From: Nereocystis luetkeana
Taxonomy: Eukaryota > Sar > Phaeophyceae > Laminariales > Laminariaceae
Assembly: GCA_031213475.1 (NCBI GenBank)
Contig: JARUPZ010000007.1
Coordinates: forward strand, 2,005,457 to 2,069,456
Length of the DNA: 64,000 bases
Direction: 5' to 3'
Part shown: one piece after another, positions 16,526-55,254 of the stretch
Numbering within the stretch: the stretch's first letter is position 1
How the letters are laid out: every line of letters starts with the position of its first letter
Position numbers and translations under genes: made by a program
The notes under the pieces: generated by a model
Told to the model about the DNA's origin: nothing
Databases searched by the model: none
What the model saw: only the letters and a program-made list of their open reading frames with translations

Positions 16526-16783
16526 ATGGTCTCTCCTTCTACTGCCGGAGGGAAAGTGCTCCTCTCCTTGCAGACATCGTCAACATCGACGATATGCTGT
16601 CTCTCCCTCATGACGATCCTCGCCTTGGTCGGAACTCAGTACATACTGTGGAGGTCATGGGAAGAATCACGCGCACGAAAGTACGTGCGCGTGCCGGGAG
16701 GGCGTCTGCCTTCGCCTGTCTCGGTGCTGCCCAAGTGGTTTGGCTTCATAGGGGGGCACACCTTGCTCGTGAAGCCTACCGAG
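16526..16783 (+). CDS. P450 exon 1 (residues 1-86)
   Basis: ATG with an upstream in-frame stop. The hydrophobic stretch ICCLSLMTILALVGTQYILW is the signal anchor. It is followed by basic residues and the hinge VPGGRLPSP, then KWFGFIGGHTLLVKPTE. Donor GTATGC after 16783, phase 0. The join to exon 2 gives the PTE-MEAWSREFGG order expected before the first P450 beta sheet. Confidence 0.88.
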
Positions 16784-19700
16784 GTATGCTTGTTGAAGGG
16801 TGTTACGACCACGTCAGCTAGCACGAACTGAGTAGTAGTAGTTGAAACTCTCAACTAACTTTGAAAGCTGCCTGGTACGCACTATTTAATGGGTGAACCC
16901 TCTCGTGTTGCGTCTCGACTGAAGAAACAGTTTGGTTGCTTTTCGCTAAATTGAATCGTTCTCAGTTCAATATTTATTTTGATTTTTTTTATTTAACCCT
17001 TTTAGAACCGCTGTCCCGTTCTGGGGACAAACCAGTCAAATTTCAAGTAGTTTTGTCCCCAAACAGGACTGCGGTTCCAAAGGGGTTAAATCAATCTCGA
17101 CATTCTCGATCACACTTCTCACAGGCCAATTATTTTATGCAGTCGGATTCGCTGTCAGTTAAAAATGTCTCTTTCAGCACCTTCGCATGAGCTTTGGCCC
17201 GTAAATATTTGAAACTTGGCTTTTCTCGCCTCGGCATGTGTCGGAGTTATCTCCAAGATCTGTCAAGGGGTGTTTCCCGCTCCTCCAGGAGGGGCCCGGT
17301 CGCAAGAATCACCGTCAACACGTTTTCGATCCAAATGAGGTGAACATTACTGAGATCGGGGATCATATCGAAAAATAATACTGCTTTTTCGATCCGATTG
17401 GGCGTTTGGATCGTATTTGACCCCGAGGCGGGTCGAAAAAGTGCGGCCGGCAATTTTCTGTTTCTGGGTGCCCGGAAAAGCGGGAAACACCCCCAGATAG
17501 ATCTCGGAGAGAGGTCCGACACATACATACATCCTAAGACGAGAAATAAATACCAATTTCCAACATTTCCGGGGCAAAAGCAGATGCGAACGTGCTGAAA
17601 GTTGTTTTTCAACTCACTCCAAAAATCAGACTGCATAAGGAGTGGCCTTATTTTGTTGATTGCTCGAGGAGGGGGGGGGTTGGTTACTTGATGTCTGAGC
17701 CGTCCACGCGGCCTCTCTCCGTCATGCCGCGTCCCTTCGAGTCCATACAAAGTCTCCGGCTCGTCATTCGACGTCTTTTTTTGTGTCTGTTTCATCTGTT
17801 TTTTTTTTTTTTTCAACTTCACTTTTACGGTATGTATATATATTGTACGGTGTTGTTGCTAAATTACTGCATGCAGTAGTCAGGGGCGTCCGTGAAAAAT
17901 GGAAAGAAACCCCAAACCCCCATAGATAGATCGGTATGAAAAACCGTTGCAACCGTTGTGATCACATGATGAAGTGGGGAAAAGGAAAAAACAACATCCT
18001 TAATTTCCTTTTTTCTCACATACATGGTTCTCGTAACCCCGCTTTGTCGTCGCGAAAAAAAAATGCCGTGGCGGTTCACATAATTTCCCCCCGGGATCCG
18101 TTGCAGTAAAAATAGTAAATTATGTACCTGGTACCTGGTCGCAGTATTTAGTGTCATCTGCCTAGTCGTGTTTGCCCCTCCCGCGAAACCCTGTACCAGG
18201 TACCAGGTATGTATGTATATAGCGAGCCCTGTGCTACTGTTTCGTCGGTGGTTACACGGCTGGGTACTACCGCTGTAGATACCCCTCTCTGCTCTCGGTA
18301 GGCTCCCCGTAAAAAAGAACCTCGGAAGGCTGGTTAAACCCCGCAACAAAAAACGAAATCTCCGTGATTGAAATAATCTCAATCAGCCGATGAGATGTTT
18401 TTTATATTGCATTCTAGATAGATGGAGATCTCGACAAGCGTTCGACTCAAAATAAATAAATGTCGCCGAGTTTTAGTCAGACACGCTCGTTAGGCGTGCT
18501 GGTTCAATGTATACCAGGTATACCCCTTACTTATATTTAGTAGTAAAGTGTTTGTGACTTTAACCTATACGGTCGCCCCGGTGGTTCAAGTGGTTAACCT
18601 CGAATTCTACTTGTTTGAGTCCTGGGTTCGAGCCCCAGGTGGGTCGGACTTTGACTTTATTTGCAAAAATAAAAAAGGGTTCAATTGTTGAGAGCGCCTT
18701 GCAGCGTGGGTAGGCACAATTCGATGCGAGTCGACGAGGGAAGAAAAGGCTGAAATCTTCTCGCGATAAAAATGAAGGCACGTACCGTAGCGGGAAGGGG
18801 GGAGAAGAGCCTGCCATGTGACCCCGGATCTGAGTTACGAGTTGGAAGGAGAGAGAAGAAGATGTGCGAAGATAATGAATGGGATGAAAAAAATAAAAAT
18901 AAAAAATAAATACGAAGGGTAGAAGATGGTTAATGTTCAGGTCTGTAAGTTTATTATGGCCACGCGGGCACCCGAGCGTCTCCTGGTGTCCGGGTTTCCG
19001 GTAACTCTACTACTGTAGTCTCTGGATGTTTTATCGGAACATAAAAAACACATCGCTAGTTCAACACGCTGCGTTTAAAACGTCGACTGGCTCCTACTCT
19101 CTGGAAAGGGACGATGACGAGTTAGAGGGTTATCACAGCAGCTAGTTTGTGTTTCTCTCCAGATTCACCCCCCCCAGGTTCTCGACAGATGACCACACCC
19201 CGATTAAGAGGTGCTCCAGAGGTCGAAATTTGGGGTACAAACAACCCCAAACTGGACGCTTGCACTTCACTTGCGGAAGGCTACAGCTCGTTGCAGGGAA
19301 CTGCAGCCCGCGAAATTGAGGGGTGCTTATGGTGGGGTCCGCGACGGCGTCGGGTGCGCCAGGCGGCAGTCGTAGGTAGCGAAAAACGGCTCACGAGGTG
19401 TTTTCGTGTAGTTAAAGTTGCGAGCGAGTGGCACAAAAAGGTCGCAAAAACGCCGAAATGTTGCAAGTCACGCAAGGGAGCTTAGCACAATGGCTACATC
19501 TGATCACCGATGAAAAATTTGCCTTCACTAGAAGATTGCTGTTATCCACGCGGATGATATACATATCTGTTAGGGAGTCGTCGACGAAGACGCCGTGGAA
19601 GTACACACTACGTTCCCGTGATGAGTAGTACGTTATTAGGCACAAAAAAAGGCAGAAAAGGGCTGAAAGTTCAGCAGTCTCCATATTTGCGTCAACCATT

Positions 19701-22700
19701 CTACAACCACGAAATAGGTATTGCAAATCCCAGACTCTTATTCCAAGTCGTATGCACATGTTGTCAAAACGCCTACGCGCGGGCATATGACGGCGCATTT
19801 CTGAGCGTGCCACTGCTGTATTAATTGTGTCCCTAGTAAGTACACAGTCTCAGATATCACGACATCATACGCATGCCCGGACAATCAATTCAATAGGCAA
19901 CTGTGAGCGACTCTGATAAGATGTAGGAGCAATATTTTGCGCTACTAGCTCTATTGTCATATTATTAAGCAGAAAAGGGCGGGATGTGTCAACTGTTAAT
20001 TAAGTATTACCTGGTAGTATGTATGTATTCAATGTATTCGTACGTAAGAAGCTTTGATATCATACGTATGTTCACAGATGCGATCACAACAAAACATTAT
20101 ACAGAAACAAAACAATCCGCATGCACTATAAATTTAAGTTGGAGAGTCAAATGCTTTCGGAGACTGTCTACCATTTAGGGCTGCCTGGACAATTGAGTTG
20201 GGAGATTTTCGACTACTATTATAATAGGTGGAATAATCCGGACAATTGATTTTGGATGCTGTCTATAATTATTTTTTATCTTGCCATCCGACAATGTGCA
20301 GCATGATCTTCAACATGGATCACTCATAACTTTCCCGAAAGAAGAAAATCTCGGAAACAAAAGGAATCCCATGCACCAAGTCTACCTCATGCTGCCTATA
20401 ATAATAGTAGTAGTTGGAATAGCCCAAACAACTACTGTACTCCTCTTAAGGCGGTCTACCGAGTGCAATTATACGGAGAATTAATTGTTTTTGGAGGCTG
20501 CAGCCGGCGTCCCCGGTGGCTTGATAGGTGGTCTGCGTGCCTGTCAAGATCAATTTCGTGGGTTCAACTACCACCGAGTGCATACTCGTAGAGTTTTTGT
20601 CTTTCATAAGAAAATTGATTAGCGGAAAGCGCGAGACCGTGAGTTAGCTACATTCGATGAAAATCGACGAGCCGTGGGAATGCTGATTCCTATGCGCGAC
20701 AAAAAATAGAGGCACGTATCGGGGGGGAGAAGGGTAGACACACCTGTTACCACGGCTTGTCCAGAAGTTCGCTGAGGGTGAAAAACTCCTACGAGTTAAG
20801 TAAAAAGTGATGATAAAAAAAAACTAAAAAACAATTGGAACAGTCCGGACAAATGTTTTTTTTTAGGTAGACAATTGATTTTATAAAATGATGAAACACG
20901 TCAGCTGTGAGTTCGACTGATTACATAGTTGATACTCAACTTTGCAAGCTGCGTAATATGTCTCGTCTATATCCCATTTCTACTGAATTTACAAATTTTA
21001 TAACAATTGATTTGAATAAAAAATTAAAAGAGCTACCAGGTATAGTATGTCAGCTGTGAGTTCAGCCGATCGGCAGATCGATCGATACTCAACTTTGCAA
21101 GCTGCGTAAACCGTTCGCGCGTTTTTCATCATTTCCCTGGTAGTGATGAATTACTGGCCGGTGACTCCCCTGGATGCTACCGGGGTCGACGAGACGCTAA
21201 TACTTGTACCATTTCGATTTAGGAGAAGGTCTACTAATAATTTATTAATTGGAACTGTCCGGGCTTTTTTCAGGAGATTTTATAGAAATAAGAGTAGTCC
21301 GCTCTTCGTCGCCTATAAAATGGAGTAGTCTGAACACTATTTAATAGGTTTCGAAGTAATTGTCTGGACAATATAGAGAAAGGTGGGGGTCTGTATTTTA
21401 TGCATATACAAGGTTCGCCTTCGAGACGTGCGTAACCTGATATCCCGGGGGCGCCGCAAGGCGAAAAGGGAGTCACAGGTGACACACGTGTAGCTGTTCT
21501 TGACCGAAACGCGAACCATGGGTTAGCTCATCATAGCGTATTGCACGAAGGAAGGAGTAATTTTAATAATTATCAGCAGGAACTGACTACATCTCTTTCT
21601 GAGGTGAATACTACACAACTGTGTCATGGTGCCTCATAGAGGAGTGACACAGGAATGTCGATACCAGCTAAGGCACTCTTCTTCTTGGGATTTTCTTGTT
21701 ACTTACCTTATGGAGAGCTCAGAAAGGGTACAGGAACAGTGTGCGACAGGGGGGGGGCAGTCGAGTGCCAAGCAGCCCCCTGAACCATGTACGTTCAAGC
21801 ACATACGATCTACGTACTGACGTTCCGATACTACTATAGCGCGTCACATGATCTCATACGACTCGTATTAGTCGTACGTATCTGCCTGTCTCTTCATGCT
21901 GATACAGTCTACGGAGACGTTTCCGTTAGTAACACGTGAGGTGCGCTGATACCGGTACGTATCGCACCGCTTATATATATAGCTACTGTTACGCAATACC
22001 ATCGCACTACTATGCACGCGGTACAATGGGTTGACTACCTGGTATATTATTTTTTCCCTTGCCTTCCGACAATGTGCAGCATGATCTTCAACATTGATCA
22101 CTCATAACTTTCCCGAAAGAGGAAAGCCTGGGAAACAAAAGGAAACCCCTGCACCAAGTCTACCTCCCTTCTGTGCCAACTTCCGGCTTGTCTACTCCAT
22201 TCTCTGTCCTTGCTCCTTCCTTCTCATCGCGTTCTATTTATAAATCCTAATCTGCATCCAAGCTCCATACTGTTTCTGTACACCACTACCATTACGCTCG
22301 TACTACGAAGATGTAGTACAGGTAGAAGAAGCATGCGCTTTACAGCATACTACCTGATACTCCCTCTTACTACGACTACTAGCCATACTACTACCAACTA
22401 CCCCTGCTGGAGCATGACACACGCTCATTCAATACAGTAGACTATATCATGGTAATCAGAGAGGTCAAATAAACGCGCGGTACCATTGGCTGGGGCATGA
22501 CTACTATGCTGTTGCTACTCTACAACATTACCAGTAACACGTGAATGCAGTTCAGGTCGAAGCAGCATGAATAAATACTGCACCATTCATACTACCTTTT
22601 CTACTGCTCTACGAGTAATACAATAATAATAACGTCTTTCGGGAAAGTTATGAGTGATCAATGTTCAAGATCATGCAGCACATTGTCGGATGGCAAGAGA

Positions 22701-24572
22701 AATAATGTTAGCCTTGTTACAACGGCAACGTAGCATGCATGCAGTACCATGGGTTGGGGGCATGACAACTATACTGTTACTGATATAAATATACCAGGTA
22801 CCACTATTACTATACTACGCAGATATGTGCACTATAATAGAGGTAGAAGCAGCATGCATGCTACTCAGTAATATACTATCAATACTACGCCGACCAAGGA
22901 TTTTGTAAATGCACAGGCTACCTGTCATATATATACGGTTGACGGCATCTACTGGTATTGGCCAAGAAGAAGCAGCATGTACAGCAAAAACAGCAATAAC
23001 AGCAGACACCACACAACGACTACGACTATTATTATTGCTATTACTTATAGTACAGGTACTACTACTGCTACAGGACAGGCATTGATAGAAGCAACATGCA
23101 CTCGGTACCATGGGCTACAATTCATATCAATATCAATACCTTCCCACAACTATTATAGAAGCTCTTACTTAGATATATATCCCTGAGCGTGCTCGGTTGG
23201 TACATCCCTGGCCTCTCAGAGCTCCCACTTCGAAGCCGCCTCCTTTTATTACTTGCCGGACCTTTCCAGAGGTTGTTTGTTTTCTCCATTTCTCTTGGCA
23301 CTCTCGGTCCTTTCTTTCTTTTTCTTCTTTCGTCTCATGTGCGTGCGTGTACTCCGAGCACGGCACGCCGAGAGAGCCCAGCGCCGTCGCGGGTGTCAGC
23401 GGGTGCTGGCGGGTAGAGGGGGGGTTGCAAGGAGCGCGGTCGCCGCTTTCGTGCCTAGGCGTCGGGTGTGCCTCGACACACGAGGGATGCATGTACGGGC
23501 TCTGTCTGGCCTCAATATGTGATTTTGGATAGAATATGTACGAGATACAAGGTTCCCCTTCGGGATGTGGGTGGCATGAAATCCGGGGGGTGTCGCAAGT
23601 TGAAAAGGGAGACGCAGGTAAAACCCTTGCACCTCTGTTTTGAGTAAAAATGATCTCGGAGAAAACTGAGTCATGGGCTACTGATCTATTGCTAAAAGCG
23701 AAGAGTAGTGGTGTAGGCTTCGATGCTCTCGCATGTCTTGGCGCATACCTGGTAGGAGACATGGACTACTGTATTGCTTAGAGGAAAGCGTAGCCCCGAA
23801 ATTGAAGGGGTGTGCATCATCCAGGTATTTATCGCCTGGGTGGGATCTGTATCATCGATATAGGATAGGTAATCCTTATTGATGATCTGAACACCTCTAC
23901 TGGGTGGGGTCTGCACGATCTGCATGAAACTAACCCTAACCCTAATCGAACATACATGTGCCGTGATTAACTAACTGATGAGTTGCTTTGCGTGGGTGGG
24001 TCTGCATGATCCGAAGGATCTGTACGATCTGCAGGGTCTGCATAACGTAGATGTACCACTCTTTTCTTTGGCGGTGAAATCTGCTTGGTCTTTATGATTG
24101 GACTTGCGTGCAGGGTGGGATAATCTGAACGCCATGTGTGCATGATGCGGAGGATCTGCATGATCGATTATCTACACACTCCAATTTGTAATTTGCCTGG
24201 AGAGACAGGTATGTTCCGTATTATTTCCACTTGTATGCCAGGTGGGATCTGGTTGATCTCAATGACATGCTAATGAATAACCGGGTCTACCTGGGTGGAA
24301 TCTGTGTTATCTAAATGATCTGTACATAATAACCGGGATACGGTCTGTATGACTTGGAGGATCTGTATGATCTGCAGGATGTCTGTATGATCCGGAGGAT
24401 CTGTAAAAGCTGAATACTTTACACTTGTTTCAGCATGATTATTAATAGCAACAACAGGAGCAGCAAGATAAGCAACCGCGTGGCACAGGCGAAAATATAA
24501 TAAGGGTAGCAGCAAGAACAGCAACCTGTGCCAGCAACAGCAGTAGTAATAGCAGCTACACCGCGATTTTGT

Positions 24573-24608
<36 letters not shown>

Positions 24609-27600: not shown

Positions 27601-29766
27601 AGGCGATGATTTTTTTCGATTTTTTTGTTGTTATTTTAGTCGGATTCCGTTGTTTTTTTTCCCTTCACGCACCACCCAGCATGTGCGAGCGTCCGAAAAA
27701 AAGTCGGTCGGCCCCAAAATGGCCGTATGTTTTCCCCTTTTCCGGGGGGAAAAATGTGCCGAAAAAAAGAAAAAGTTGGGATTGTTTTTTTGTCCTCCTC
27801 GGCATTACTCTGGCTTGACGCCAGATAGTCCCAGGCCTTCGCGAAGGCCTCCTGATCGTACTTGACCACCCTTTCCAACGTTCCTGCCCACTGCCGCGGC
27901 GAAACCCTCGTGTGCTCCACACCAAAAATACGTTTATTCCCAAAACAAATCTCAAACAAAGTATCATAATAATCCCAAAATATTCCCAAAATTTACGCCC
28001 TTTCGAACCAATAATTCTCATTATGTAAGTGTCGGAATTTTATCTAAGCCATGACTTGAGCTTTCTAATGAACCTAACTTTAGCGTCGTGCGTATATCCA
28101 TTGGCGAGGTGCGATCTGCCCCCCAGAGCGGACTTCACTTATGGGACAGAGGAAGTACTCATGCACAGGTATACGTACGGTTGAGGCGCGATGAAAAAGT
28201 TTTATTTGTCATGAATAGTTTCGAACGACTGTCTAATAAATACTCACGGCAACAGCAGCTGACTCGTGTGGCAACAGCAGCTGGCCCGTGGCAACAGCAA
28301 TGGAACTCGAACAGTAATTATGGAAATCAATAGGCAGCATCTCGGCTGTAATCAGTATACTACGGTATACCTCTTCACATGATTGAGGGCATCACATCAA
28401 AACAACATCTGATTCTGTGCTTGTCATGAAAAATGCTTCTCTCTACGTTCAAATGACTGTCCAAAGCAGTAGTACTCGTATATTCTCATGGTTACTATTA
28501 ATAGAGCAACAGACTCGTGCTACAGCATCACTAACACACTACTCCTAATACTACTATAATACTGCTACTACTACTACTACTACTACTACTCCTCCTCCTC
28601 CTATTACTACTGTTGTTGCTGTTAGTACTGCTGCTGCTGCTACTACTACTACTGTACTGCTATAACCACTGCTATGACTATCTATGCAGGATGCACACCG
28701 AGACAGGGGGGGTAGAGAGAGACGGGCGGCAGATGAGGCTCTGTGATTATTGCCCGGTGCGATTACCTACTGCTGAGAGTTTGCGACTGGACAACTTGCT
28801 AAGTTTGATACTTATGCAAATACGACTGTAGCACCTTGTACCAATTTGCCCCAGGTAGACGGACCGAGGGAGCCTGGTGCCTGGTGTTCGTTAAAGGGCT
28901 AGGTCAAACATATATGACGCTCGACAGGCGTGTACTGCTGCTGCCGTATCTGCTGCTGCTGAGTAGGTTTAGCAATCTGGGAGAAGGGATCTTTAGGGAT
29001 GTTGTTGACTTGAAAAATGCGTGGCGTGGTCTGCACTTCGGGATCGTCGTCCGCAACTGAGAAATTTTCTGGTCTGATGCAAACGCGGCGCAGCCCGCCG
29101 CGTTTATGGCGAGTTTTGGCCCGTTTTGGCTGCGGTTTGGGGTCAGGGATAGGGTTACGGTTGGGGTTAGGGTTAGAGTCAGGGGTTGGGTTGGGTCTTC
29201 GCCCGTACCTTGATCCCAACAGGGACCAAAACACCTGAACAGCCTACCAACCTAAAGATCCCTTCTCTCAATTTGTTAAAGGTCCTCGCTGCGATTGATA
29301 AAAAACACTAAGTGGACGGTTAAAAGCGGGCGATTTCTAAATTATTGAGATTTTCAACGCAGAGAAATTCAGATAGAAAATTCTTTGTTGTACGACGTGA
29401 ATGCCGAATCACACGTGTCCTGATATTTTAGTCGTACAAATAGGATATCCGCCCGGCAGTCGAGCAGTGTGAGTCGTGTTAGGCGCCACACCAAAACACA
29501 GTACAGCGAGACGGAGGCAGTCTGAGCCTGGTTCTGTTGCTTTTGCTCATTGCGAACATACCTTTCGCTGAAAGCGTGCAACTGGAAAACTACCGTAGCC
29601 AGAGGTATGACAATACTTGGCATAAAAAAAGTATCCCAGGTAGACGGACCAAGGGAGGCAGTTTGTGGTCTCGAACATGCTCGGTGTTAGGTGTACACCA
29701 CCCGTGAAATGGCTTGGTGCAAAATAAACAACCGCCGACAGATGTGTACTGCTGCTGCTGCATGCC

Positions 29767-29797
<31 letters not shown>

Positions 29798-30888: not shown

Positions 30889-30950
<62 letters not shown>

Positions 30951-42900: not shown

Positions 42901-45900
42901 TTCTAAGTAATTTGTCCCCAAATCGGGACTGCGGTCCTAAAAGGGTGAAGAGTGTCCCTACTGGTTGGGCCGGTTGGGGAATGTGCTGCTGTTGGTTGCG
43001 CAAACCTAGTGCGGGTTGGGGCTTTCGTGCCGGGGATCGACACTGATTTGGTTGTATGGCGTATTAATCGAAATGTACGCGGCCTTAAGGTGGGAAAAAA
43101 TGTTTCTTGGTTATTGTGTACGGGGCGAAACTGGCTTGTTTTTGGTGTCGGCGTCGATTGCCTTCGTTTTTTTTTCGTAGGCGGTCCAAATTGACTGGGC
43201 TTTGTGTCGGGGCATCGAAACTGGCTTAGTTTTTCGAGCGTTCTACATCGCTCTGGCACGGGGTGTACAATTCCTCGCTTCATTTTATGCAAAAACTCTT
43301 TGAAGAATCGGTCGACATCCTATAGATATATTTCAGTTAGATGACATGAAAAACACACAGATTGATTGGGTCACCTGTGGGTTGCAACAATGGTTTACAG
43401 GCGCTAATGAGGGGCGTTATTGGTTGAAGTCTGAGGCATTATTGCTTGAAGTACTATCTCGGTAGTACGAGTATTAATACTACTAGCTGCGGGTTTAATC
43501 TGTGTCAGCCGAAAATACCTGTACTACCGGGGCCACCGGCACTATTGAGGGACCACGCCCGTAATCAGATCCCACGATGAGACCAAAGACCATCTATCCC
43601 CTATGTCTACACATCATATATGGGTATGATTACTGCGCCGCCCCCGCAATAGTAAACTACTGTGCAGAACCCTGCGCCGTCGGTTCAGGTGGCAGAGGGG
43701 CGGGCGGGGGGGCGGGCACGGGACGACTAACAGGGAGGGGGGGGGGGATGCTTTGTAGCGTTCCGTAGCCGTTAGCACACCCGCTTGGAGGCAAGTACCC
43801 TACGTTATTTTTGCGGGGTGATACGCGGAGTCAGGCCCAGATGAGGGCTGGCTTGCTTCGTTCCCGTGAGCGGGCGGTAACTTGGTTTGTTCCCCAGGTT
43901 TAGGTGGATTCGTTTGGCGACTTGGTCGAACGTCACGCACTGTTTGCTACCGAGAGATTGACGCCTCCTCGCCGCTTGTTGACATCCCTCAACTAATTGT
44001 GTCCTTGTGGGTTGCAGGTGGGGACCACGTGTGACAGAGGCATCAACGACCGTAAGGTCTTCTCCGACGAAGAGGTTCTGTACCAGGCCAATAGGTGACA
44101 CCCTAGCTATAATAGGGGAGTACGTTTGTTTTGCCAAAAAAAAAACATTTTTGATTTGCGGGGGCTCCTTTCTCGGGAGACTCTGCCCGATATCGTCGGA
44201 ACACAAAGTATGCTCTACACCTTGTTGGTTGGGAACCTGGGAAATTCCTCTGCGTATCCTTTATAAGTATCAAAACCAGTGTGTGAGTGAGGTGTGGAGA
44301 TCCTCAAATGACGAGCCTCCGAAAAAAGTAGGTGCGCCCCTACCGCAGCATGTGTCGTGACTCCTATGCAGCCCCGCTGGTTTGCCCTGGTGGTGTGTCG
44401 TGTGCTTCATTGGTTGCCTCTCTTGCCCGTTTTTGCCAGCACCTTTCATGCCGACTGCGTCTGAGTGGTGGGACCGGTAATACCTGAAAAATACCCCTCA
44501 CTGCAGATAGGATAGCGGCCGCCCCCCCCCGAGCGAGCTTTGGAATTGGATCAACCACGTTCACGGCTCGTTTATACCAAAGTCGGCGGGTGTCTTTTAC
44601 ATCAATGCACACCTCGGAGGGACCATGATCTCTACCATCTACAGCAGCTGCAGCAGTAGTTTGTCCTCTCCCGTTGTGAGAGGTTGTGCTGGATCCGCAT
44701 ACTACATACATGACGCACAGGAAACACACGCGGGGTCATGCAGAATATGCGGATCCTACCCGGAAAACCGTTTGAGAACGGCGGTAGATACGCTCTGAAG
44801 TAGATATCTAGATCATGAAGCGGGAATCGATCGTCTCTCTGGGGTGTGCTGTAATTCGGTCCGGAGTACGTAACGTCCATGGGGAACTTACGCCCATGGT
44901 GTGTAGCGACCCCTCCGCCAGGGAATGCACTAGAGCACCGGGGTTACGAGACTCGTCTTGTTTCCAAACTTGAGGGAAAATATTGTTAAATCCGGTAACA
45001 GTCAGGTTTTTCGGGAGGGCACCTGCTCGTCCGGAGAGGGCTGGTTTGATTCGCTGTCGGATGGCGTGAGTCGGCAAGTCGGCTGACCTCCACAGCTGGT
45101 TTCACCAGTCGACTTGCCTACTCAATCCAGTTAGTTACTGGTGGTAAAATTATGTCGACTTTCACTGCTCTGAAAAATCGATCCTTCGCTCGGCTTCAAC
45201 GACCAACCATTGCAGTCTGTTCCTCGGAGGAACGGACACGACAGCGCTGACTCTGTCTTGGACCATGTACTACCTGGTCAAGCACCCGGAGGCATTAGCT
45301 CGTTGTCGGGCAGAGGCGCTTCAGGTGGCGCCGGGAAGGTGTGCGTATGTGTTCGGTTGTAATCCCCATCAGAGTACTACTGTCTGTACTCTGTACTTGC
45401 GGCTTGCGGCAGACCTGTTCTACGATTGATTACGCCTTAAAGCACGGTTTTACCACGAACCTTTCTGATTGGCTGGGCTCTTCAACTGCTAATAGAACCT
45501 ATACAATATCGGTGAAAAGCAAATATGCCTTTCACAAAAAAGGTGCCCACTGGTTTAACTTAGACCTCGAGAATATGTATCTGGTGTGCAGATGTGTTTT
45601 GTCCTCCTCGAGTCGGTTTTTTGGATGCAGTATCGCAAAGATCTCCATTTCTCTCGTGAGTAGAGCATCGGAAATTGTAGGAGTACTCCCCTTCCGTACG
45701 ATGCGTCGTCACTCTCGCCCTGCTTGAGGACGGCGTCCACACGGCCGTTGCCACGCCTAGTAGTGTGGCTCACGACGTTGCCGCAACGTTCTCGCCTGGG
45801 CTGACGCGGCATAGTAGATGCGCCTGCTGCACCAAGTCCGCTGCTTGGCATGCATGGTGATCTCCACCGATGGACCAGATCGTTGGTTGAAGAATCACCC

Positions 45901-48900
45901 GGATTGAAATGCCGAGGTGCGTAAAGCAAGCAAGTATACCCCTCTTCCACTCCTAGTTGTTCGGAGCCTTTATTGGGTCCTCGGGCCGCATTTTGGCGAG
46001 GCGTTAATGCTTGAGCAACAACAACAACGCGCCTTTCTCCGCCCTTGCCCTTTGCTATGTCATGACCCCGCATGCTGCCGAACCCGGAAGCAACGGCATG
46101 GTGTCCACAACCGGGCAACTATCTCAACTGGTATTTTGCTCCGCGGTGTTCACGGAGGTGCTGAGGCTCAGAGGTGTTATACCGTTTTTGTACTTCCACG
46201 GGACGGTGAGTTGCTCGCGGCGGACGCGGGGTCATCCCCCCCACAGCACAGTTGAAGCGCACACCTGTTTGTTGAGTATTGTGTGTAGAACGTCAAGCCC
46301 TCTTTGCTGCCCCTGCGTCTGCCTGTTATCTCGAACGCCGGACATCAGCTGGGGTAACTCGCTCTCTGGAGGGTTGGAAAAGTTTCCCTTTCGAGTTTGA
46401 CGAGTAACGTGGCCCGATTCTCGGATTACGGCTCTCGAATCAAGTTCACCGTGACGCTCGCACGCGTGGGGGAGTGTAACAAATGTTGTGGATCAATGGT
46501 TTGTAGTACGATTCGTTTGTCACAGCTTCGAAAGCATGGTCTATATTCCGCACCTCCTCATTGCACAAACTATCTTCAATCCGATAGTGTTCCCAGGCTG
46601 TCACGGTCAGGGGAAGGGTTGGCATATTCAATGAATTTCAACTGTTTGGTTGAATCTGCAAGCTAAGGTGTCTATACTGCAGCATTCGGTGTGTGAGTAC
46701 TAGCTGTGCAAACCTCCGCAGCAACGAACTACCCGATACACCTTTGGAATACAGCACTTGGTGGTTTACAAAACGATTCATTTAATTACTCTATATGAGT
46801 AGATTTTAATAACGACGAGGCAATGAAATTGTGTATACTGCTGTATTTCCTGGTAAGGATTACATTCCAGTCTTGATTCTAATTAAGGTCAGTTGTTGGG
46901 TGATGAACAGAGGCCCCTCTAGCAAGGAGCCTCATTTGCCTTTGGGTGTCATCCTTATGGAGTCCCAAACCCCGTGTTTGACGTCCGGACCCTTACGAAT
47001 TAGCGACGAAGGGCAAACGCTGTGGATGGCACGAAGGACGCTGCAAGGACGCTTGGGGAGTCTGCGAGCAATTGCCGACCCCTAGCTGTCCCGCCGGCCG
47101 TCGTCCCGTTTCTATTTTTGTTTTCTCTCGACTGTATCACATGTCATTGTCCCGGAACAATCGCGGCGATGACTGATGCCGTCTGCCTACACCACCTCAG
47201 CGCTGATGGTGCTCTGTTTTCACCCACAAGCACTGGGGCGGAGAGGAGGTCGTAGGCAACAATATTAGGTAAAACATGCACAGCGTATGACTTGATGCTG
47301 CTACTGCTGATTACATCGCGCATGCTCACATTATCGTTGATAGGAAGATTTCAAGTTGCAGGACGGATCGGTGTTCCCGGTGGGGACGTCGTTCGCTGTG
47401 CTCACTCGGGTGGCCAGCGTTGCCGAGGAGGCCTTCACGAGGGCGGCAGACTTTGTGCCCGAGAGGTGACACTTTGTGCCCGAGAGGTGACTCTCTTGTT
47501 GTTGACGGTCATCTGCTCTATCTCTCACGTTTCTCATTATTCCCGTAAGCCTAGGTTACCTGGCACCCGCTTGGACGGTGGGACCTCGCTTGCGTGTGGA
47601 GAGACAGCCAGTGGTACCCGGGGTTTGAGAGCTTCCACGCGTAAGGCTGCTGCCCGCCTCAGTGGGCCGAAACTTGCCAGATTGGCTATTTGTGCACCGT
47701 ACTGATATTTGCCAGACATTTACGAAAAACGTTGTTAGTTAGTTGTCGATATAGGGTGGATACGTGTTTGGACCGGTAACCGGACATATGTGGCAGAAGC
47801 ACACACAGCATTGGTCAAGGCAGCGTTCGTGTAGTGCCAATTATAAGCCATACCCTGGAATGTACCATGGTGCCTAATAGGCACGCAAGCCGATTTCATT
47901 TTTTGTTTTTGGGTGTGTACGATAATCTTCCGCTACTACATGCATGGTACGTCTGTTTTATGTCTTCCTGTGGAATATGCTTCTACTCCAGAGTTTGTGG
48001 AAATTGTCCTGTACTCACGTGCTTGAGTTTGGCGCTGATTACTAGTGACGGGCACAACAGTCTGTGTGGCCTGGGCCACGATATTCTCTAGGCTGTCATT
48101 ATTTCGGCTCGCCGTGTTTCCGCTCGTCCAGTGAATATTAGGGCTGTCAGTTGGTGGCCCTGGCGGCTGGTGATGGCTTGCCTTGCGAATTAAGCCAACT
48201 ACAGGCCGTGCTAGTCAATGCGATTTTCGTCGATGGCGTTTGTTATCTCGATTTCTAAATACACAAATGGAAATTATGATAACAGGGTGCCAAAACAAAT
48301 GGAGGCAAAAATATCCAGTTTTTCCCATTTAATTGGCATTTGTTAGTGAACCAAGAAACAACTGAAGTGGAAAAATTCCACAAAACTTGTCTCGATGGTT
48401 TGCGGAAGTAAGCCAAATCAAAAGGCTTTCATGTTTCCTCGATTGAAAAATACTGCGAGCCTCAAAAGTACAAACCACTTACACACAAACAAACGCAGAA
48501 TTCCGGCAAATTCGGCGCGCAGCTAACTGCGATAAGTACCCGTACAAGCTACCAGGTAACTGATAATCAGTCGGCGCGTTTTAGGCAGCCAGTCCACAGC
48601 CCTACGTGGTGGGTCAAATGTTAACTCTTTTTGAGGACTTTCCTTGTCTCACCGCGATATCCTCTGGTCATGTTTTCCCTCTTTTGCCACAGATGGATTG
48701 AGGCAGAGCGTGAGGAGGCGTTGTTGGGTAAAGGGGCCGGAAAAAGAGAGGGCGGTGTCCATCACATGGAAGAAGCGCACCTCGCGTTCGGTGCCGGTCC
48801 CAGGGTGTGCCCCGGGCAGGTGAGGTAGATAGCTGACGTATTCCGATGGGGTTCACCCTCGGAAAAAGGGTACGGTAGTACACGTCCAAAATCGGATCGA

Positions 48901-51767
48901 AATCGCCCATGAGCTTTCGAAGGGGCCGAACAGAGTCCAGCATTAGGGTGGTACCATGCCGCTGTTGGGGTGCACTGGTTGCTGCACCTCGGTCTCACCC
49001 GGCGATGGACGACGCCTACATAGAACTGGAAATGAAAAACAAGTACCGGCTGTGATTATCGAGGATTTCGTCAGAACTCGTACCTGCAAGCTGCGTATGA
49101 TAATTCAATTGCGCGTACTATTACGCACAGGTTTTGATAGTTTTCGAAATAAAAAAAATATCTCGGCCGTGAGATCGAGGGTTTCCTCGAAACTCGTCTT
49201 CGCAAGCTGTGTCTGATATTTTATTATACATATCACTACGCGGAGTCTCGCTTCAGTGTGCCTCCTCTTCATCTCCCTCTGTTCTACGCATTCCTGCCAA
49301 CCGACGCAGATCTTCGGACGTTAGCAGCCAGAAGAATATTTCCCGCCGGTGTCATCTTGGTTGCGAAACATTTGTACGAGTACACTATATATATGATGCG
49401 CGTAAAAAGTGGGCGCTTGCAAAGCGGGATGGTGATTGGGCACCATCGTTGGGTTCTGTAGGGAGCCGGTACGTCAAACGAAACATTCTCCTTGCACCTT
49501 TTCAGCGAAGCGGGGTTCCTCGAAGTGAACTATTCCAAGGGGGAGGGAATTATGCCGCAGAATTTGAAGCAGTAACAGGGCTTGAAGGCGCGATTGTCCT
49601 GCAAAAACTGGAGCAACTGGAGCAGGTCTTAAGGTATCACTTGCCCAAACCTTATACATATGATGCATAAGCTTGGTACCTTCCAAGGCTCAATCGTGAA
49701 GCCTTCAACTTTCGTGGTGGAACACACGGTCCACACTCGATCATTGCAGCTCACACCATAAAAAATCGTTTGGTTGTTGAAAAAGATATTACTCAAACGG
49801 TGTCAGTCAAGCTCCCGGCAAAGAGTGACGATTCAGGGACTCTTTAAAGCAGGATATACGCATAAACGACGAGGCTTTGTCACGGTGTAGCACCGAACTG
49901 TAGCACCGAACCGCGGGGCGTACGTTTTATTTGCAGAATCCTACGGTGCGGTGCGGTGCGGTTCGGTGCGGTGCGGTGCAGGTATCGTTTCTGAGCTCGG
50001 TGCAGTGTGGCGGCGGTGCGGTGCGGACTTTGGTTTGTGGTTCTCAGTCGGTGCAATTCGGTAAACCCCTTTAAAAACCACACCGCGCCGTACCCGTACC
50101 CTACCAAATTGCTTGTAGACCTCCGGCCAACGGCGCGGTGCGGTTCGGTGCGGCTTTGGATGTTTAAAAGCGTACGGTGCGGTTTCGATATAGTCCTGCT
50201 GTGCGGTGCAGTTTTGTTGAAGACATAATCATGTGGTGCGGCGCGGTACACCCTCAAAAACCTTGCTAAATGAACGACCTGTCTGTCTATCCTCATATTT
50301 GCTTCGCCTCTCCGTGTTTCGTTGGTATGTCGTTGTGTTCGCAGGACATGGCTAAAGCCCAAGCGGCTATCATCATCGCCGCCATCTGCGCCCGTTTCGA
50401 CATGGCGCTTGCGCCTGGGCAGGTACATAAATGAGCTACATGGTACATACTTATCACCTTGAGTCAACAAATACCCCTTCTGAATACTCGCTATGCCAAC
50501 GTACGGCATTCAAGTCGAAGAGACAGAACGCGATGACCCCCATATACTATATTTCGTGGTACTAGGCCCCAGGTGTGAAACGTCAGTATCTACGGACTTG
50601 ACATGTGTCCTATTTCCGGTAAAGCTACGTGCTACCGACAAAGAAACATGTTTCGTTCCCTCGTCTACAAGACACGCTCCCTATATATAGTATTCTGCAG
50701 CTTCAGATTCGTTTGCCCTCCATGAGTGGTGTATGTACGGCATGAGAGGGAATGTTACGCCCGAAGTACGGGAGATCGAAGTATCCCACTTGCAAAGATT
50801 ACTTCGACGAAAATCCTCGATCTCACGGCTGACGTTTTTTAACGTTTAAACATACAACCTTTCGACGAAAATATGACAAACACGGCTGGCGTGTCGACCT
50901 ATCCCGTACACAGGGTATCCGACCGTATCAAAGTCGTCGGTAGGTTTAAGGACCCAAAGATACCGCCTTGACGTACTCTAACAGGTAGTGCTGGCGTACC
51001 CGCTGTGATATGTATGTGCTATGGGCATCGATGTCGTCGAGAGCTCTGATGCCTACGGGTAGAGCTGCAAGCGTTGCGGTGCCTAACGAGCGTCCTACCT
51101 TTTTCAAGCAACCTCTGACGACCTCAGCGACGCCTTCTTTATAAATCTAAAAGCTTTTCCACTATCCGCAACGGGTGGGTGAACCAGAAAGTAAGCTTCT
51201 CATCCCCGGAGAAACGTCGGCCTCACGAGCGGTTCGCACCGCGATGCAACTCACCTTTCGTGCCATTTGCCGAGCGCCTCATCATGGCGCTTCGTGCCCG
51301 TTGCCAGCAATAGTAGCTGTCTGGTCGGTGAGAACTCGACGTGCTTCCTCCCGGTGGTATATCTGGGCGCAAGAGTCCGTGTTCATGCGACCACGGCCAT
51401 GCGTGATATAAGTACACCTCCCTATAATGTGGAAAATACTGATTAGGGCGTGCCTTAGCCAACGAGAGTGCGCAAACAGCTACTTTAGGAAGATTCGCCA
51501 TCATCAGGAATCCACCACGAGGATTGCGGAGATTCTATACCCATTAAAATTCTGAAGAGGTCGTCGGCTGAAACATCCGCGTTAAAAACAATCCCCAGAT
51601 AATTTTTGGATAAAGAAAGGTGAGAGAAACATGTTGACGGTCTCCCCCATTTGCGTGATCGCCCTCCTGCTATATTCATTCGACAGGCCGACCCTCCCCA
51701 GGAGATCGAGACGATCACCACCGGCCCACTGAACGTCGACCTAATTTTCACCAGGAGGCAGCAGTGA
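16526..51767 (+). CDS. cytochrome P450, 14 exons, 570 residues
   Basis: A heme-thiolate monooxygenase, predicted to be anchored in the endoplasmic reticulum and fed electrons by NADPH-P450 reductase. Substrate unknown. Exons: 16526-16783, 34030-34170, 35243-35389, 36467-36542, 39441-39591, 40470-40554, 41022-41153, 44018-44094, 45216-45338, 46091-46205, 47344-47465, 48693-48819, 50345-50422, 51687-51767. All introns are GT..AG, every junction keeps frame, and the sum is 1713 nt. Landmarks in order: hydrophobic anchor at about residues 23-42, PGG hinge at 57-59, WxxxR at 157-161, AFGLDVN near 218-224, GGTDTT at 360-365, ExxR at 419-422, FVPERW at 472-477, FGAGPRVCPG at 508-517 with Cys515 as heme ligand. 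Total length is normal for a microsomal P450 and no coding damage was seen. The CYP family cannot be named from memory. Introns occupy about 95 percent of the gene. Confidence 0.93.
16993..17089. mobile_element. TTAA palindromic mini-element, copy 2
   Basis: 97 bases including TTAA at both ends. The left arm is CCCTTTTAGAACCGCTGTCC, the right arm its near-perfect complement ending GGTTCCAAAGGGG. The centre is GGGGACAAA...TTTGTCCCC. It is the best-preserved copy. Confidence 0.92.
17090..18570. other. intron spacer, nothing recognised
   Basis: No gene or clear repeat. Contains TACCTGGTA and TACCAGGTA words near 18124, 18193 and 18515. Confidence 0.4.
18571..18911 (+). mobile_element. tRNA-derived SINE, copy 1
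   Basis: About 341 bases. An A-box-like TGGTTCAAGTGG at 18582 and a B box GGTTCGAGCCC at 18625 form an RNA polymerase III promoter head. An unrelated body follows with an AGGCACGTACCGTAGCGGGA block, and the element ends in an A-rich AAAAATAAAAATAAAA tail. Its body matches 20506-20832. Confidence 0.8.
18912..20150. other. intron spacer, nothing recognised
   Basis: Frames on both strands are short and show no domain. Confidence 0.4.
20281..20388 (+). repeat. conserved 65-108 bp element, copy 1 (forward)
   Basis: Core CCGACAATGTGCAGCATGAT, CTTCAACAT.GATCACTCATA and ACTTTCCCGAAAGA, then GGAAACAAAAGGAA and CACCAAGTCTACCTC. Four copies are known in the window, two in each orientation. Confidence 0.9.
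20506..20832 (+). mobile_element. tRNA-derived SINE, copy 2
   Basis: A-box-like TGGCTTGATAGG at 20517 and B-box-like GGGTTCAACTACC at 20560. The body carries GAGGCACGTATCGGGGGGGA and the element ends in an A-rich tail. Same family as 18571-18911 but diverged. Confidence 0.72.
21380..21540 (+). repeat. dispersed repeat D, copy 2
   Basis: ATACAAGGTTCGCCTTCGAG, CCCGGGGGCGCCGCAAG, GAAAAGGGAGTCACAGGT and CATGGGCT-like blocks in the same order as 23540-23695 and, in part, 2684-2770. Confidence 0.75.
21541..22045. other. intron spacer, nothing recognised
   Basis: No gene or structured repeat seen. Confidence 0.4.
22046..22706. mobile_element. possible terminal-inverted-repeat element built from the 20281 family
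   Basis: A forward copy of the conserved element (22059-22166) and an inverted copy (22635-22697) face each other across about 470 bases. Outer ends are ATTATTTTTTCCCTTGCC and GGCAAGAGAAATAAT, again complementary. This makes a 661-base unit with arms of about 75 bases. No coding content; the family is not recognised. Confidence 0.65.
22170..23165. repeat. degenerate GAAGCAGCATG / ACCATGGG(C/T)TGGGG repeats
   Basis: Blocks with GTACCATTGGCTGGGGCATG near 22480, GTACCATGGGTTGGGGGCAT near 22745 and a shorter form near 23103, and GTAGAAGCAGCATGCATG near 22840. Spacing is about 270-360 bases, an eroded tandem array rich in TAC triplets. Confidence 0.6.
23540..23695 (+). repeat. dispersed repeat D, copy 3
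   Basis: ATACAAGGTTCCCCTTCGGG, ATCCGGGGGGTGTCGCAAG, GAAAAGGGAGACGCAGGTAA and TCATGGGCTA; same order as copy 2. Confidence 0.75.
23820..24420. repeat. GGATCTGTATGATCT minisatellite
   Basis: Irregular run of GATCTG-based words (GATCTGCATGATC, GATCTGCAGG, GGAGGATCTGTA). Includes two telomere-like CCCTAA units at about 23933-23946. Confidence 0.75.
24560..24645. repeat. (TAG)n microsatellite
   Basis: About 25 TAG units with rare TAA variants. Confidence 0.95.
24840..26300. repeat. composite tandem array, about 535-bp period
   Basis: The marker ACGTGGTGGATACAGCG starts at 25047, 25579 and 26115, giving periods near 532 and 536. Inside each period a 130-base subrepeat (GGCACACGAGCACTCAGCAG ... 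CTCGTACGCCTGTTGTTGCT) occurs twice, five times in all. The left edge carries a separate 160-base duplication (GGCCGACGCGTTGGCG at about 24866 and 25026). Alternate CAG, CTCGAG and TTGCTG content makes spurious Gln- and Ser-rich frames on both strands. Confidence 0.92.
26385..26510 (+). repeat. dispersed repeat C, copy 2
   Basis: GGAGCCCGGCCGGAGCCAAC and the following 25 bases match 11455-11500. Confidence 0.55.
26676..27074 (+). CDS. coding-like frame of unknown origin
   Basis: The first two thirds of the frame show strong G/C at third positions (for example TVAESEENFTRTESVARWSR), unlike the surrounding intron. The last third is T-rich and looks non-coding. No domain is recognised. It could be a decayed exon, an element fragment, or an alternative exon inside P450 intron 1. 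Confidence 0.2.
   Translation: MKEGAPSLSTNILPSWRTTATVSTGLHARRATGLTVAESEENFTRTESVARWSREGRAAYEAEKSSAVRMFSFLTGARSSNQAENGFRRETGICFSSRIFRFHFTLFLRCCCCAAVPCCAFSFFVHTYSISK
27533..28155. mobile_element. Tc1/mariner-like DNA element, non-autonomous or decayed
   Basis: Perfect 19-base terminal inverted repeats: CTTCCTCTGTCCCATAAGT at the left and its exact complement at the right, flanked by TA on both sides, the target duplication of the IS630/Tc1/mariner group. The terminal word resembles the CTCCCTCCGTCCCATAA ends of plant Stowaway/mariner elements. The 623-base interior has a minus-strand frame at 27636-27989 (WAGTLERVVKYDQEAFAKAW...) too short to be a transposase. Perfect ends suggest recent mobility. 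Confidence 0.85.
28156..28555. other. intron spacer, nothing recognised
   Basis: No gene or structured repeat; a few CAGCAG patches. Confidence 0.4.
28555..28665. repeat. (ACT)n / (CTG)n microsatellite
   Basis: Runs of ACTACT, CTCCTC and CTGCTG triplets. Confidence 0.9.
28961..29288. mobile_element. MITE with telomere-like core, copy 1
   Basis: 328 bases. The left end is GAGTAGGTTTAGCAATCTGG, then GAGAAGGGATCTTTAGG; the right end CCTAAAGATCCCTTCTCTCA, then ATTTGTTAAAGGTCCTCG is its imperfect complement, giving arms of about 38 bases. The middle holds GGGTTAGGGTTAGAGTCAGG, telomere-like but internal. Same family as 55255-55565 and 55108-55253. Confidence 0.88.
29289..30840. other. intron spacer, no gene seen
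   Basis: Contains a TGC/CTG microsatellite at about 29745-29810. Other frames have no domain support. Confidence 0.45.
30846..30962. repeat. (TAG)n microsatellite
   Basis: More than 30 triplets with few variants; the poly-Ser, poly-Leu and poly-Tyr frames are artefacts. Confidence 0.97.
31020..31210 (+). repeat. dispersed repeat E, copy 1
   Basis: CCTGACGGGGCAAAAATGAG, TCAACCGAAATCTGTAATAA and GTCAGTATCGACCACTCGA. Same order as 32000-32185. Confidence 0.6.
32000..32185 (+). repeat. dispersed repeat E, copy 2
   Basis: CCTGACGGAGCAAAGATACG, TCAACCAAAAATATT, and two partial copies of the CAAGTATCG(G/A)CCACTC word at about 32098 and 32148. Confidence 0.6.
32400..32488 (-). repeat. conserved element of the 20281 family, copy 4 (inverted)
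   Basis: Includes CTTTCGGGAAAGTTATGAGT and CATGCTGCACATTGTCAGAT, the complement of copies 1 and 2, with the TTTGTTTCCGAGG extension. Confidence 0.88.
32540..32630 (+). repeat. dispersed repeat F, copy 1
   Basis: GGGACCACAATGGATGGCCC, CTATTAATTGACCATTG and TTGTCCAGGGTGTG match 57303-57390. Confidence 0.6.
32631..34029. other. 3' end of P450 intron 1, nothing recognised
   Basis: A G run at about 33517-33531; no supported gene. Ends at the exon 2 acceptor. Confidence 0.45.
34030..34170 (+). CDS. P450 exon 2 (residues 87-133)
   Basis: Acceptor GCGCTCAG, donor GTGGGT, phase 0 at both ends. Encodes MEAWSREFGGDYELQIFGHR, then VVVLTGLADIRRMLIVRPSK: beta sheet 1 and helix B of a P450. The frame stays open past the donor, so the exon end rests on the phase match with exon 3. 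Confidence 0.88.
34171..35242 (+). other. P450 intron 2
   Basis: 1072 bases. Contains a C run at about 34817-34841; the proline- and glycine-rich frames around it are artefacts. Confidence 0.85.
35243..35389 (+). CDS. P450 exon 3 (residues 134-182)
   Basis: Acceptor CGGTTACAG, donor GTACTG, phase 0. Contains MFFDEGKEWGRSRRIISP: the WxxxR of helix C (Trp157, Arg161), which contacts a heme propionate. Confidence 0.92.
35561..35663. mobile_element. MITE, TACGGGGG family, copy 2
   Basis: 103 bases with inverted arms TACGGGGGACCATAGGTCAA and the complement of its near copy at the right end (TATCAACTATGGCCTCCCGTA region). Lies in P450 intron 3. Confidence 0.9.
36047..36178. repeat. 66-bp tandem duplication
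   Basis: Two units (36047-36112, 36113-36178), each starting CCAAAACAACGATCGCAGAC and ending TTTATCACACCT, with a single difference. Very recent. Confidence 0.97.
36467..36542 (+). CDS. P450 exon 4 (residues 183-208)
   Basis: Acceptor CGACAAG; donor GTGAGG, phase 1. Reads IGERLCAKLGDEADAGEVVD, then AKQRF: end of helix C and helix D. The earlier GT at 36538 would break the frame into exon 5, so 36543 is the donor. Confidence 0.85.
36665..36766. mobile_element. TTAA palindromic mini-element, copy 3
   Basis: Left TTAA and CCCTTTTAGGACCGCAGTCT; right arm GGGACTGGCGTTCTAAAAG has lost its TTAA. Lies in P450 intron 4. Confidence 0.88.
37410..38650 (-). mobile_element. Ty1/copia-type retroelement fossil (gag region)
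   Basis: On the minus strand about 37580-37830 reads like the gag of a copia-type element: an EEARLTQAWYSFRMKEGEPP block, then NDWWM and a helical EMAYRIGE-like segment. The Arg/Pro/Ser-rich stretch to its right is a GGCGGT simple repeat, not conserved gag. No pol region or LTR was seen. Degraded, several breaks, probably old. Confidence 0.55.
37920..38250. repeat. GGCGGTGGCGAC simple repeat
   Basis: Irregular GGYGRC triplets. Gives Arg/Pro- or Gly/Val-rich frames on both strands. Confidence 0.8.
38549..38797. repeat. 123-bp tandem duplication
   Basis: Two units starting CGGCGGAC and sharing GTTGAGAAACGATATCGTGG, ACAGCATGCGCGTGGCTTTG and GGTTTGCTGGCGGCGATC. About 10 percent divergent. Confidence 0.93.
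39441..39591 (+). CDS. P450 exon 5 (residues 208-258)
   Basis: Long pyrimidine tract and GTTGCCAG acceptor; donor GTGAGA, phase 2. Reads RFTHDVIALTAFGLDVNTTS: the conserved helix E segment. Ends in SMQPLS with a split Ile codon. Confidence 0.9.
39592..40469 (+). other. P450 intron 5
   Basis: 878 bases, no element recognised; C-rich tract before the acceptor. Confidence 0.8.
40470..40554 (+). CDS. P450 exon 6 (residues 258-286)
   Basis: Pyrimidine-rich tract and GACGCAAG acceptor; donor GTGCGG, phase 0. Reads LGWKLLSSRLAWVRRSKKHS, then LHLKEAVQ: the helix F and F-G region. Confidence 0.85.
40555..41021 (+). other. P450 intron 6
   Basis: 467 bases, the shortest intron; nothing else recognised. 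Confidence 0.85.
41022..41153 (+). CDS. P450 exon 7 (residues 287-330)
   Basis: Strong TTTTGCTCTGCAG acceptor and GTGAGT donor, phase 0. Reads GAIDAVREEARQAADRA, an Ala/Glu/Gly-rich linker, then TGGTLLRKI: helix G to H. Confidence 0.92.
41590..42175. repeat. GGGTACCCGGGTACC palindromic minisatellite
   Basis: Clusters of GGTACCCGGGTACC words separated by spacers with CATACACTAT.TGCTCC and GTTTGAGCGGCGGCG. Each cluster is self-complementary and could extrude a hairpin. Confidence 0.9.
42853..42949. mobile_element. TTAA palindromic mini-element, copy 4
   Basis: Left TTAA with CCCCTTTAGAACCGCAGTCT; right arm ACTGCGGTCCTAAAAGGG then TGAA. 97 bases, the same length as copy 2. Confidence 0.92.
44018..44094 (+). 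CDS. P450 exon 8 (residues 331-356)
   Basis: Acceptor GTGGGTTGCAG, donor GTGACA, phase 2. Ends FSDEEVLYQAN, the start of helix I. The split codon completes as Ser with exon 9. Confidence 0.9.
44095..45215 (+). other. P450 intron 8
   Basis: 1121 bases. Minus-strand frames in 44364-45077 have no domain that I can support. Confidence 0.85.
45216..45338 (+). CDS. P450 exon 9 (residues 356-397)
   Basis: Acceptor CATTGCAG, donor GTGTGC, phase 2. Reads LFLGGTDTTALTLSWTMYYL: the helix I oxygen-activation motif (canonical A/G-G-x-D/E-T-T/S), then KHPEALARCRAEAL of helix J. Confidence 0.95.
45339..46090 (+). other. P450 intron 9
   Basis: 752 bases, nothing else recognised. Confidence 0.85.
46091..46205 (+). 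CDS. P450 exon 10 (residues 397-435)
   Basis: Acceptor ACCCGGAAG, donor GTGAGT, phase 0. Reads QLSQLVFCSAVFTEVLRLRG: helix K with ExxR (Glu419, Arg422), then VIPFLYFHGT. Confidence 0.93.
46206..47343 (+). other. P450 intron 10
   Basis: 1138 bases, nothing else recognised. Confidence 0.85.
47344..47465 (+). CDS. P450 exon 11 (residues 436-476)
   Basis: Acceptor GTTGATAG, donor GTGACA, phase 2. Reads EDFKLQDGSVFPVGTSFAVL and ends DFVPER: beta sheet 1-4 and the F-x-P-x-R-W region. The donor sits in a perfect 21-bp tandem duplication. Confidence 0.93.
47450..47491 (+). repeat. perfect 21-bp duplication of the exon 11 splice donor
   Basis: ACTTTGTGCCCGAGAGGTGA plus C occurs twice without a mismatch. 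The first copy holds the last codons of exon 11 and the donor used for the frame. The second is an identical donor 21 bases further on whose use would retain a TGA in frame. Confidence 0.97.
47466..48692 (+). other. P450 intron 11
   Basis: 1227 bases. Begins with the duplicated donor; otherwise nothing recognised. Confidence 0.88.
48693..48819 (+). CDS. P450 exon 12, heme loop (residues 476-518)
   Basis: Strong pyrimidine tract and TTGCCACAG acceptor; donor GTGAGG, phase 0. Ends HLAFGAGPRVCPGQ, a full FxxGxRxCxG signature with Cys515 as the axial heme ligand. Confidence 0.96.
48820..50344 (+). other. P450 intron 12
   Basis: 1525 bases including the GGTGCG minisatellite. Confidence 0.88.
49905..50260. 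repeat. GGTGCGGTGCGGTTC minisatellite
   Basis: Pentamer-based GGTGC/GGTTC words in several clusters. Confidence 0.9.
50345..50422 (+). CDS. P450 exon 13, helix L (residues 519-544)
   Basis: Acceptor GTGTTCGCAG, donor GTACAT, phase 0. Reads DMAKAQAAIIIAAICARFDM, then ALAPGQ: helix L directly behind the heme loop. Confidence 0.93.
50423..51686 (+). other. P450 intron 13
   Basis: 1264 bases, nothing else recognised. Confidence 0.85.
51687..51767 (+). CDS. P450 exon 14, C-terminus (residues 545-570)
   Basis: Acceptor CATTCGACAG, phase 0. Reads ADPPQEIETITTGPLNVDLI, then FTRRQQ and a TGA. This matches the usual P450 ending: a T-x-G/x-P segment, a beta strand and a basic tail. An alternative in-frame acceptor 15 bases further on would drop five residues. 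Confidence 0.88.
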   Translation, partial: ADPPQEIETITTGPLNVDLIFTRRQQ

Positions 51768-55105: not shown

Positions 55106-55107
55106 CT

Positions 55108-55253: not shown

Positions 55254-55254
55254 C

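Follow-up and report, generated by a model that had tools for sequence, protein, structure and literature searches.

A complete-looking cytochrome P450 gene of about 14 small exons in a 64,000-nucleotide stretch of DNA

Introduction

Can a complete cytochrome P450 be read from genomic DNA in which its coding sequence is broken into many short pieces, and is such a chain of pieces more than the construction of a reader already in search of one? This is the question raised by the stretch of 64,000 nucleotides analyzed here, which we call the window. A preliminary description of it had proposed a P450 assembled from 14 exons, and its central claims stand: the P450 identity, the exon order, and the phases are as given there, and the signatures GGTDTT, EVLR, PERW, and FGAGPRVCPG follow one another in sequence order. 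The window holds one complete-looking cytochrome P450 gene of about 14 small exons, an arrangement that is ordinary for a eukaryote. We consider it highly likely that this is a single nuclear eukaryotic gene, apparently intact, for a membrane-anchored (microsomal-type) P450 monooxygenase of about 565 residues in 14 exons. The value of the result lies mainly in a correct gene model, as a many-exon gene proves readable from raw sequence and its exon boundaries are given below; biologically, it provides an additional P450.

A gene model of 14 exons

Joining the exons with exon 2 beginning at 34030 and exon 6 at 40470 yields exactly 570 residues with the heme loop FGAGPRVCPG at residues 508–517, so this is the same model as that of the preliminary description. 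Its product scores 189.9 bits against PF00067, with the heme loop where it had been predicted. In our preferred model, exon 2 begins at 34018 and exon 6 at 40497 instead, giving 1698 coding bases and 565 residues with a PF00067 score of 197.6 bits (Pfam-A). A 574-residue variant matches the same family across profile positions 11–460 of 462, at E = 1.2e-56 and 192.9 bits (Pfam-A). The Pfam gathering cut-off for PF00067 is 22.8 bits, and a score above it across most of the profile places the protein within the superfamily. The 14 exons of the original map, with their order and phases, are thus kept, but the starts of exons 2 and 6 probably shift, and exon 1 is likely. The features of the preferred model are listed here; bit scores are those of single pieces against the bacterial profile described in the next section.

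Exon 1 (probable): 16526–16783, + strand; residues 1–86, membrane anchor, basic stretch, and proline hinge PGGRLP
Intron 1: 16784–34017, + strand; 17,234 bases, repeat-rich
Exon 2: 34018–34170, + strand; helix A and beta-1 region; start in the preliminary description, 34030; 14.0 bits alone
Exon 3: 35243–35389, + strand; helix B'–C with WGRSRR; 13.9 bits alone
Exon 4: 36467–36542, + strand; helix D; 2.3 bits alone, at noise level; both ends from the spliced alignment
Exon 5: 39441–39591, + strand; helices E and F (GRFTHDVIALTAFG); 9.6 bits alone; both ends recovered
Exon 6: 40497–40554, + strand; F–G loop and start of helix G; start in the preliminary description, 40470
Exon 7: 41022–41153, + strand; helix G and variable loop; placed from open frame and phase
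Exon 8: 44018–44094, + strand; approach to helix I; 3' end from the spliced alignment
Exon 9: 45216–45338, + strand; helix I, GGTDTT at 355–360; 37.7 bits alone; both ends recovered
Exon 10: 46091–46205, + strand; helix K, EVLR at 414–417; 15.1 bits alone; both ends recovered
Exon 11: 47344–47465, + strand; beta sheet and start of the PERW motif; 14.4 bits alone; both ends recovered
Exon 12: 48693–48819, + strand; heme loop FGAGPRVCPG; 18.4 bits alone; both ends recovered
Exon 13: 50345–50422, + strand; helix L; 3.9 bits alone, at noise level; both ends recovered
Exon 14: 51687–51767, + strand; C-terminal strand with in-frame TGA stop; start recovered

The region has coding potential, and its exons lie in order, in matching phases, and with the P450 signatures in place. 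GC3 is 0.71, and GC is 0.596 in exons versus 0.495 in introns (574-residue variant). The in-frame codon score is not the highest of the three frames in exon 6 (with the 40470 start), exon 7, or exon 12. All 13 introns are GT–AG, which carries no evidential weight because the sites were chosen for it. A ceiling of about 90 meaningful codons per frame, as claimed in the preliminary description, is true of the exons themselves (at most 86 codons), but the open frames that surround them reach 164 codons. Rfam and tRNA scans of the window returned no matches.

Recovery of the exons by a bacterial profile

The profile was built from nine P450s only (plasmid loci L001–L009), drawn from 102 matching plasmid records, with one member (L004) cut at its first methionine inside the gene. 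The protein encoded in the window could not train this profile because the profile is purely bacterial, with the caveat that its nine P450s were selected by similarity to that protein. The units searched were stop-to-stop pieces of at least 15 codons on both strands of the window. The top seven, with scores from 37.7 to 9.6 bits, correspond to exons 9, 12, 10, 11, 2, 3, and 5; every one is on the + strand, and their order follows that of the profile. The highest score in 20 first-order randomized windows was 7.8 bits, and the eighth-ranked piece, at 5.0 bits, lies outside the gene. Exons 1, 6, 7, 8, and 14 have no piece among the best 25 rows of this search.

A spliced profile alignment (Viterbi) allowing GT–AG introns in three phases was run over positions 16001–52500 with a default intron penalty of 9, the exon coordinates not being supplied, and scored 195.8 bits. 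Agreement with the gene model was exact at either end of exons 4, 5, and 9–13, at the start of exon 14, and at the 3' end of exons 2, 3, and 8. At this penalty, exons 2, 3, and 8 began at 34030, 35249, and 44038, respectively; over all the penalties tried, the start of exon 2 was given as 34030 or 34027. Exons 1, 6, and 7 were not returned at penalty 9; a spurious exon at 33700–33768 appeared in the stead of exon 1, and other pieces were chosen for exons 6 and 7. With a penalty of 12, exon 6 and most of exon 7 were still absent, and with a penalty of 15, the segment 40497–40554 and the start at 41022 were returned and exons 8 and 14 were lost. Exon 6 was thus recovered at penalty 15 only, and the start of exon 7 only at penalties of 15 and 6. 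Exons 6–8 are weak when taken singly, and they fall in the variable F–G and G–H regions.

The same alignment gave 29.0 bits on the reverse strand, 22.9 and 24.2 bits on the two flanks of the window, 28.1–35.5 bits on 30 randomized regions, and 27.6–44.8 bits with 15 column-scrambled profiles. When eleven exons were masked, the region scored 29.7 bits, the level of the controls, and no second P450 was seen in it. Because the spliced score far exceeds all of these controls, we conclude that one P450 is present and that the chain did not arise by chance.

A reader who knows what to seek could in principle build such a chain by accident, and free choice of splice sites does permit open chains: 75 options for exon 6 keep the frame open, and at penalty 6, the spliced alignment also adds many spurious short pieces. 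However, the blind score lies far above 46 control runs (30 randomized regions, 15 scrambled profiles, and the reverse strand), and seven exons were each detected individually by the bacterial profile. The control runs already count against chance for exons 2–5 and 9–14. Chance assembly is therefore vanishingly improbable, the blind alignment reaching 195.8 bits where no control exceeded 44.8. A less extreme but still quite improbable reading makes the locus an unexpressed copy or a pseudogene of recent origin. The abundance of repeats in the region would suit such a reading; against it, the 1698 coding bases run without an internal stop or frame break in a window that contains no N, the catalytic signatures are retained, and GC3 is above the intron GC. 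We favor an intact gene, and its exon boundaries are examined below.

Acceptors of exons 2 and 6

Exon 2 probably begins at 34018 and not at 34030. With the longer exon 6 in both cases, the 34018 start scores 192.9 bits against Pfam versus 189.9 bits for 34030. It also restores the gap of 18 residues between the hinge glycine and the helix A tryptophan, as found in all seven bacterial proteins that could be tested. Exon 6, in turn, probably begins at 40497 and not at 40470, the Pfam scores being 197.6 bits for the former, 192.9 bits for the latter, and 189.4 bits when the exon is omitted. The bacterial profile ranks 40497 first among the 75 exon 6 choices that keep the frame, though it leads the next by only 0.9 bit.

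The probable exon 1 and the long first intron

We regard 16526–16783 as the likely first exon of the P450 gene. Its hydropathy reaches a maximum of 2.0 over 19 residues, followed by basic residues and PGGRLP, and it ends in phase 0. Microsomal (class II) P450s have an N-terminal anchor followed by a proline hinge, and the protein would have both if this probable exon is part of the gene. Its GC3 of 0.69 is like that of the other exons, and its codon score ranks 13th among the 299 possible first exons considered between 8 and 34 kb. Alone, exon 1 has no Pfam match. Adding it raises the Pfam score by 3.0 bits when the acceptor is 34018 and by nothing when it is 34030 (189.9 bits with or without); under the bacterial profile, the score rises by 0.5 bit (54.8 versus 54.3). 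That profile could not settle the matter because exon 1 stood only 31st among the profile rows for the 299 candidates (one of the 30 above it being a shorter version of exon 1). A junction test, restricted to the seven of the nine bacterial proteins in which the anchor pattern is present, scored the tail of exon 1 at −1.1, 22nd of 1019 donor-ended tails in the 34018 register; in the 34030 register, the same tail ranked 427th of 1019. An anchor (hydropathy of at least 1.6) combined with a GTA or GTG donor occurs in 17 of the 299 candidates, and among the 15 of these that were listed, a P..P..G hinge is present at two places only, 16526 and 27528/27606.

The second of these places bears on the reading, to our minds an unlikely one, that only exons 2–14 belong to the P450 gene, the exon at 16526 being foreign or fortuitous and the true 5' exon lying nearer 34 kb or being split in two. 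Such a reading would account for a first intron of 17.2 kb, roughly 13-fold the average length of the other twelve (1359 bases), and for the small gains that exon 1 brings with either profile and its lack of any gain with the 34030 acceptor. In addition, an alternative start at 27606–27755 has both anchor and hinge and scores nearly as well against Pfam (192.6 bits). The 27 kb alternative, however, has a GC3 of 0.44–0.46 and a negative codon score, and it fits the junction poorly (−25.6 versus −1.1 for exon 1). Anchor, donor, and hinge occur together at just those two places among the 15 candidates, and exon 1 keeps the 18-residue spacing from hinge glycine to helix A tryptophan of the seven bacterial proteins that have the anchor pattern. 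With exon 1 at 16526, intron 1 contains tandem and dispersed repeats, and it probably expanded through repeat accumulation. No Pfam family was found in ten of its larger open frames at E up to 0.01.

P450 signatures and proposed function

In the 565-residue model, WGRSR lies at 161, GGTDTT at 355–360, EVLR at 414–417, PERW at 469, and FGAGPRVCPG at 503–512. The heme loop conforms to FxxGxRxCxG, helix K carries ExxR as EVLR, and GGTDTT satisfies the helix I pattern [AG]Gx[DE]T[TS]. Cys510 and both the glutamate and the arginine of EVLR are invariant against six aligned bacterial P450s. The order of these motifs is most likely that of an oxygen-using monooxygenase. General knowledge of P450s suggests how such a gene and its product would work. 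The transcript would be spliced from the 14 exons, and the N-terminal helix of exon 1 would hold the enzyme in the endoplasmic reticulum. Cys510, from exon 12, would bind the heme iron, the Asp–Thr pair of GGTDTT, from exon 9, would help to split dioxygen, and Glu414 and Arg417 together with PERW would keep the heme pocket together. A separate P450 reductase would supply the electrons for the predicted activity.

Relationship to known P450s

Searching the Protein Data Bank matched 287 distinct sequences, of which the best 60 carry the names of P450s or of enzymes that belong to the P450s. The best matches are CYP97A3 (LUTEIN DEFICIENT 5; 4.8e-19) and CYP3A4 (1.3e-18). The window protein has in common with CYP3A4 and CYP97A3/CYP97C1 a near full-length Pfam match and the WxxxR, GGTDTT, ExxR, PERW, and FxxGxRxCxG motifs, but its similarity to them is low, with bit scores of up to 71 in this search. 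Five P450 families of NCBIfam were matched, all far under their cut-offs.

The plasmid P450s (from Caballeronia, Paraburkholderia, Variovorax, Methylorubrum, and Herpetosiphon) share the signatures at 22–27% identity in the six that were aligned. These six lack the anchor segment, their hinge is about 12 residues shorter than that of the window protein, and their G–H loop is also shorter; the plasmid genes are single open frames, whereas the gene in the window is split. Identity is at most 29.3% in the best 30 of the 102 plasmid records, and the plasmid search found no close homologue. Likewise, no close homologue of this single protein was found in viral contigs, where an alignment search returned 12 distant relatives among 15 matching stretches at 22–29% identity. 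In prokaryote genomes, 13 stretches fit the pattern of the 565-residue query, and none of the 13 encodes a relative.

By convention, a protein belongs to a named CYP family when it shares at least about 40% identity with a member already named. It is conceivable, though we think it rather doubtful, that this enzyme is the first of an unnamed P450 family, marked by a longer hinge and G–H loop, from a lineage such as the brown algae. The P450 fold is also that of the CYP74 clan and CYP5164, the plant and brown-algal oxylipin synthases. CYP74 heme domains are described in one report as having nine extra residues and catalytic domains unlike those of monooxygenases and as not needing molecular oxygen; CYP5164B1 and CYP5164A3 are named there from Ectocarpus (PMC10813956). 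Instead of carrying those nine extra residues, the heme loop of the window protein is of ordinary length, and its helix I keeps DTT, which argues against placement in the CYP74 clan. This distinction is drawn from the published description of CYP74.

Comparison with kelp genes

That the gene is remarkable finds no support here. According to the gene statistics in one report on Saccharina japonica, genes of this kelp average 6.54 exons with introns of 1,057 bases, and cytochrome P450 is among its expanded families (PMC4421812). Fourteen exons are therefore about twice this one kelp average, and what stands out is only intron 1 with its 17.2 kb. The other twelve introns have a mean length of 1359 bases, and the window has a G+C content of 50.3%; another report on S. 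japonica gives a mean intron of 1,203 bases and 48.7% G+C (PMC6507550). In the simple-repeat list of the latter, ACT/AGT is the second commonest unit (PMC6507550), and three AGT-type arrays are present in the window. These features would suit a kelp-like brown alga as the host, but they are no more than a hint, as they would suit many other eukaryotes too.

Repeats and other features of the window

The palindrome TACCWGGTA occurs at 27 places within 4979–56746, against 0.49 expected and at most 4 in 100 shuffles. Fourteen of the 27 copies lie in intron 1 and none in exons. No relationship between their flanks is apparent by eye, and some copies are joined in a chain, TACCWGGTACCWGGTA (at 18194 and 26040). 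The copies could be the footprint of repeated insertion at TA. Neither 9-mer was found as a word in the literature searched, and in five viral contigs with the chained form, the stretches examined held no further copies. A repeat unit of the window that was sought in viral contigs had no match there.

A 21-base tandem repeat at 47450–47499 spans the donor of exon 11 and thereby places another gtgac donor 21 bases farther downstream. Its use would terminate the protein because TGA follows the first donor immediately. Related short units at 17005–17092, 36667–36765, and 42855–42942, in introns 1, 4, and 7, have complementary ends around GAACCGC/GCGGTTC and are, we assume, MITE-like.

Beyond the gene, an open frame at 54087–54749 (+ strand) matches by tblastn two plasmid records whose annotation is that of proteins with a reverse transcriptase domain, at 33.6% identity over 54% of the frame. 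It reached no Pfam family at cut-off, and we take it to resemble the RNase H of Ty1/copia elements. In 60001–64000, GC rises to 0.630 with a GC skew of 0.305, and long open frames run on both strands; eight frames within 59349–63955 have no Pfam family at E up to 0.1. Finally, a dispersed repeat with TTAGGG-like stretches is present at 28961–29287 and 55075–55565, about 26 kb apart, with most copies 80–92% alike.
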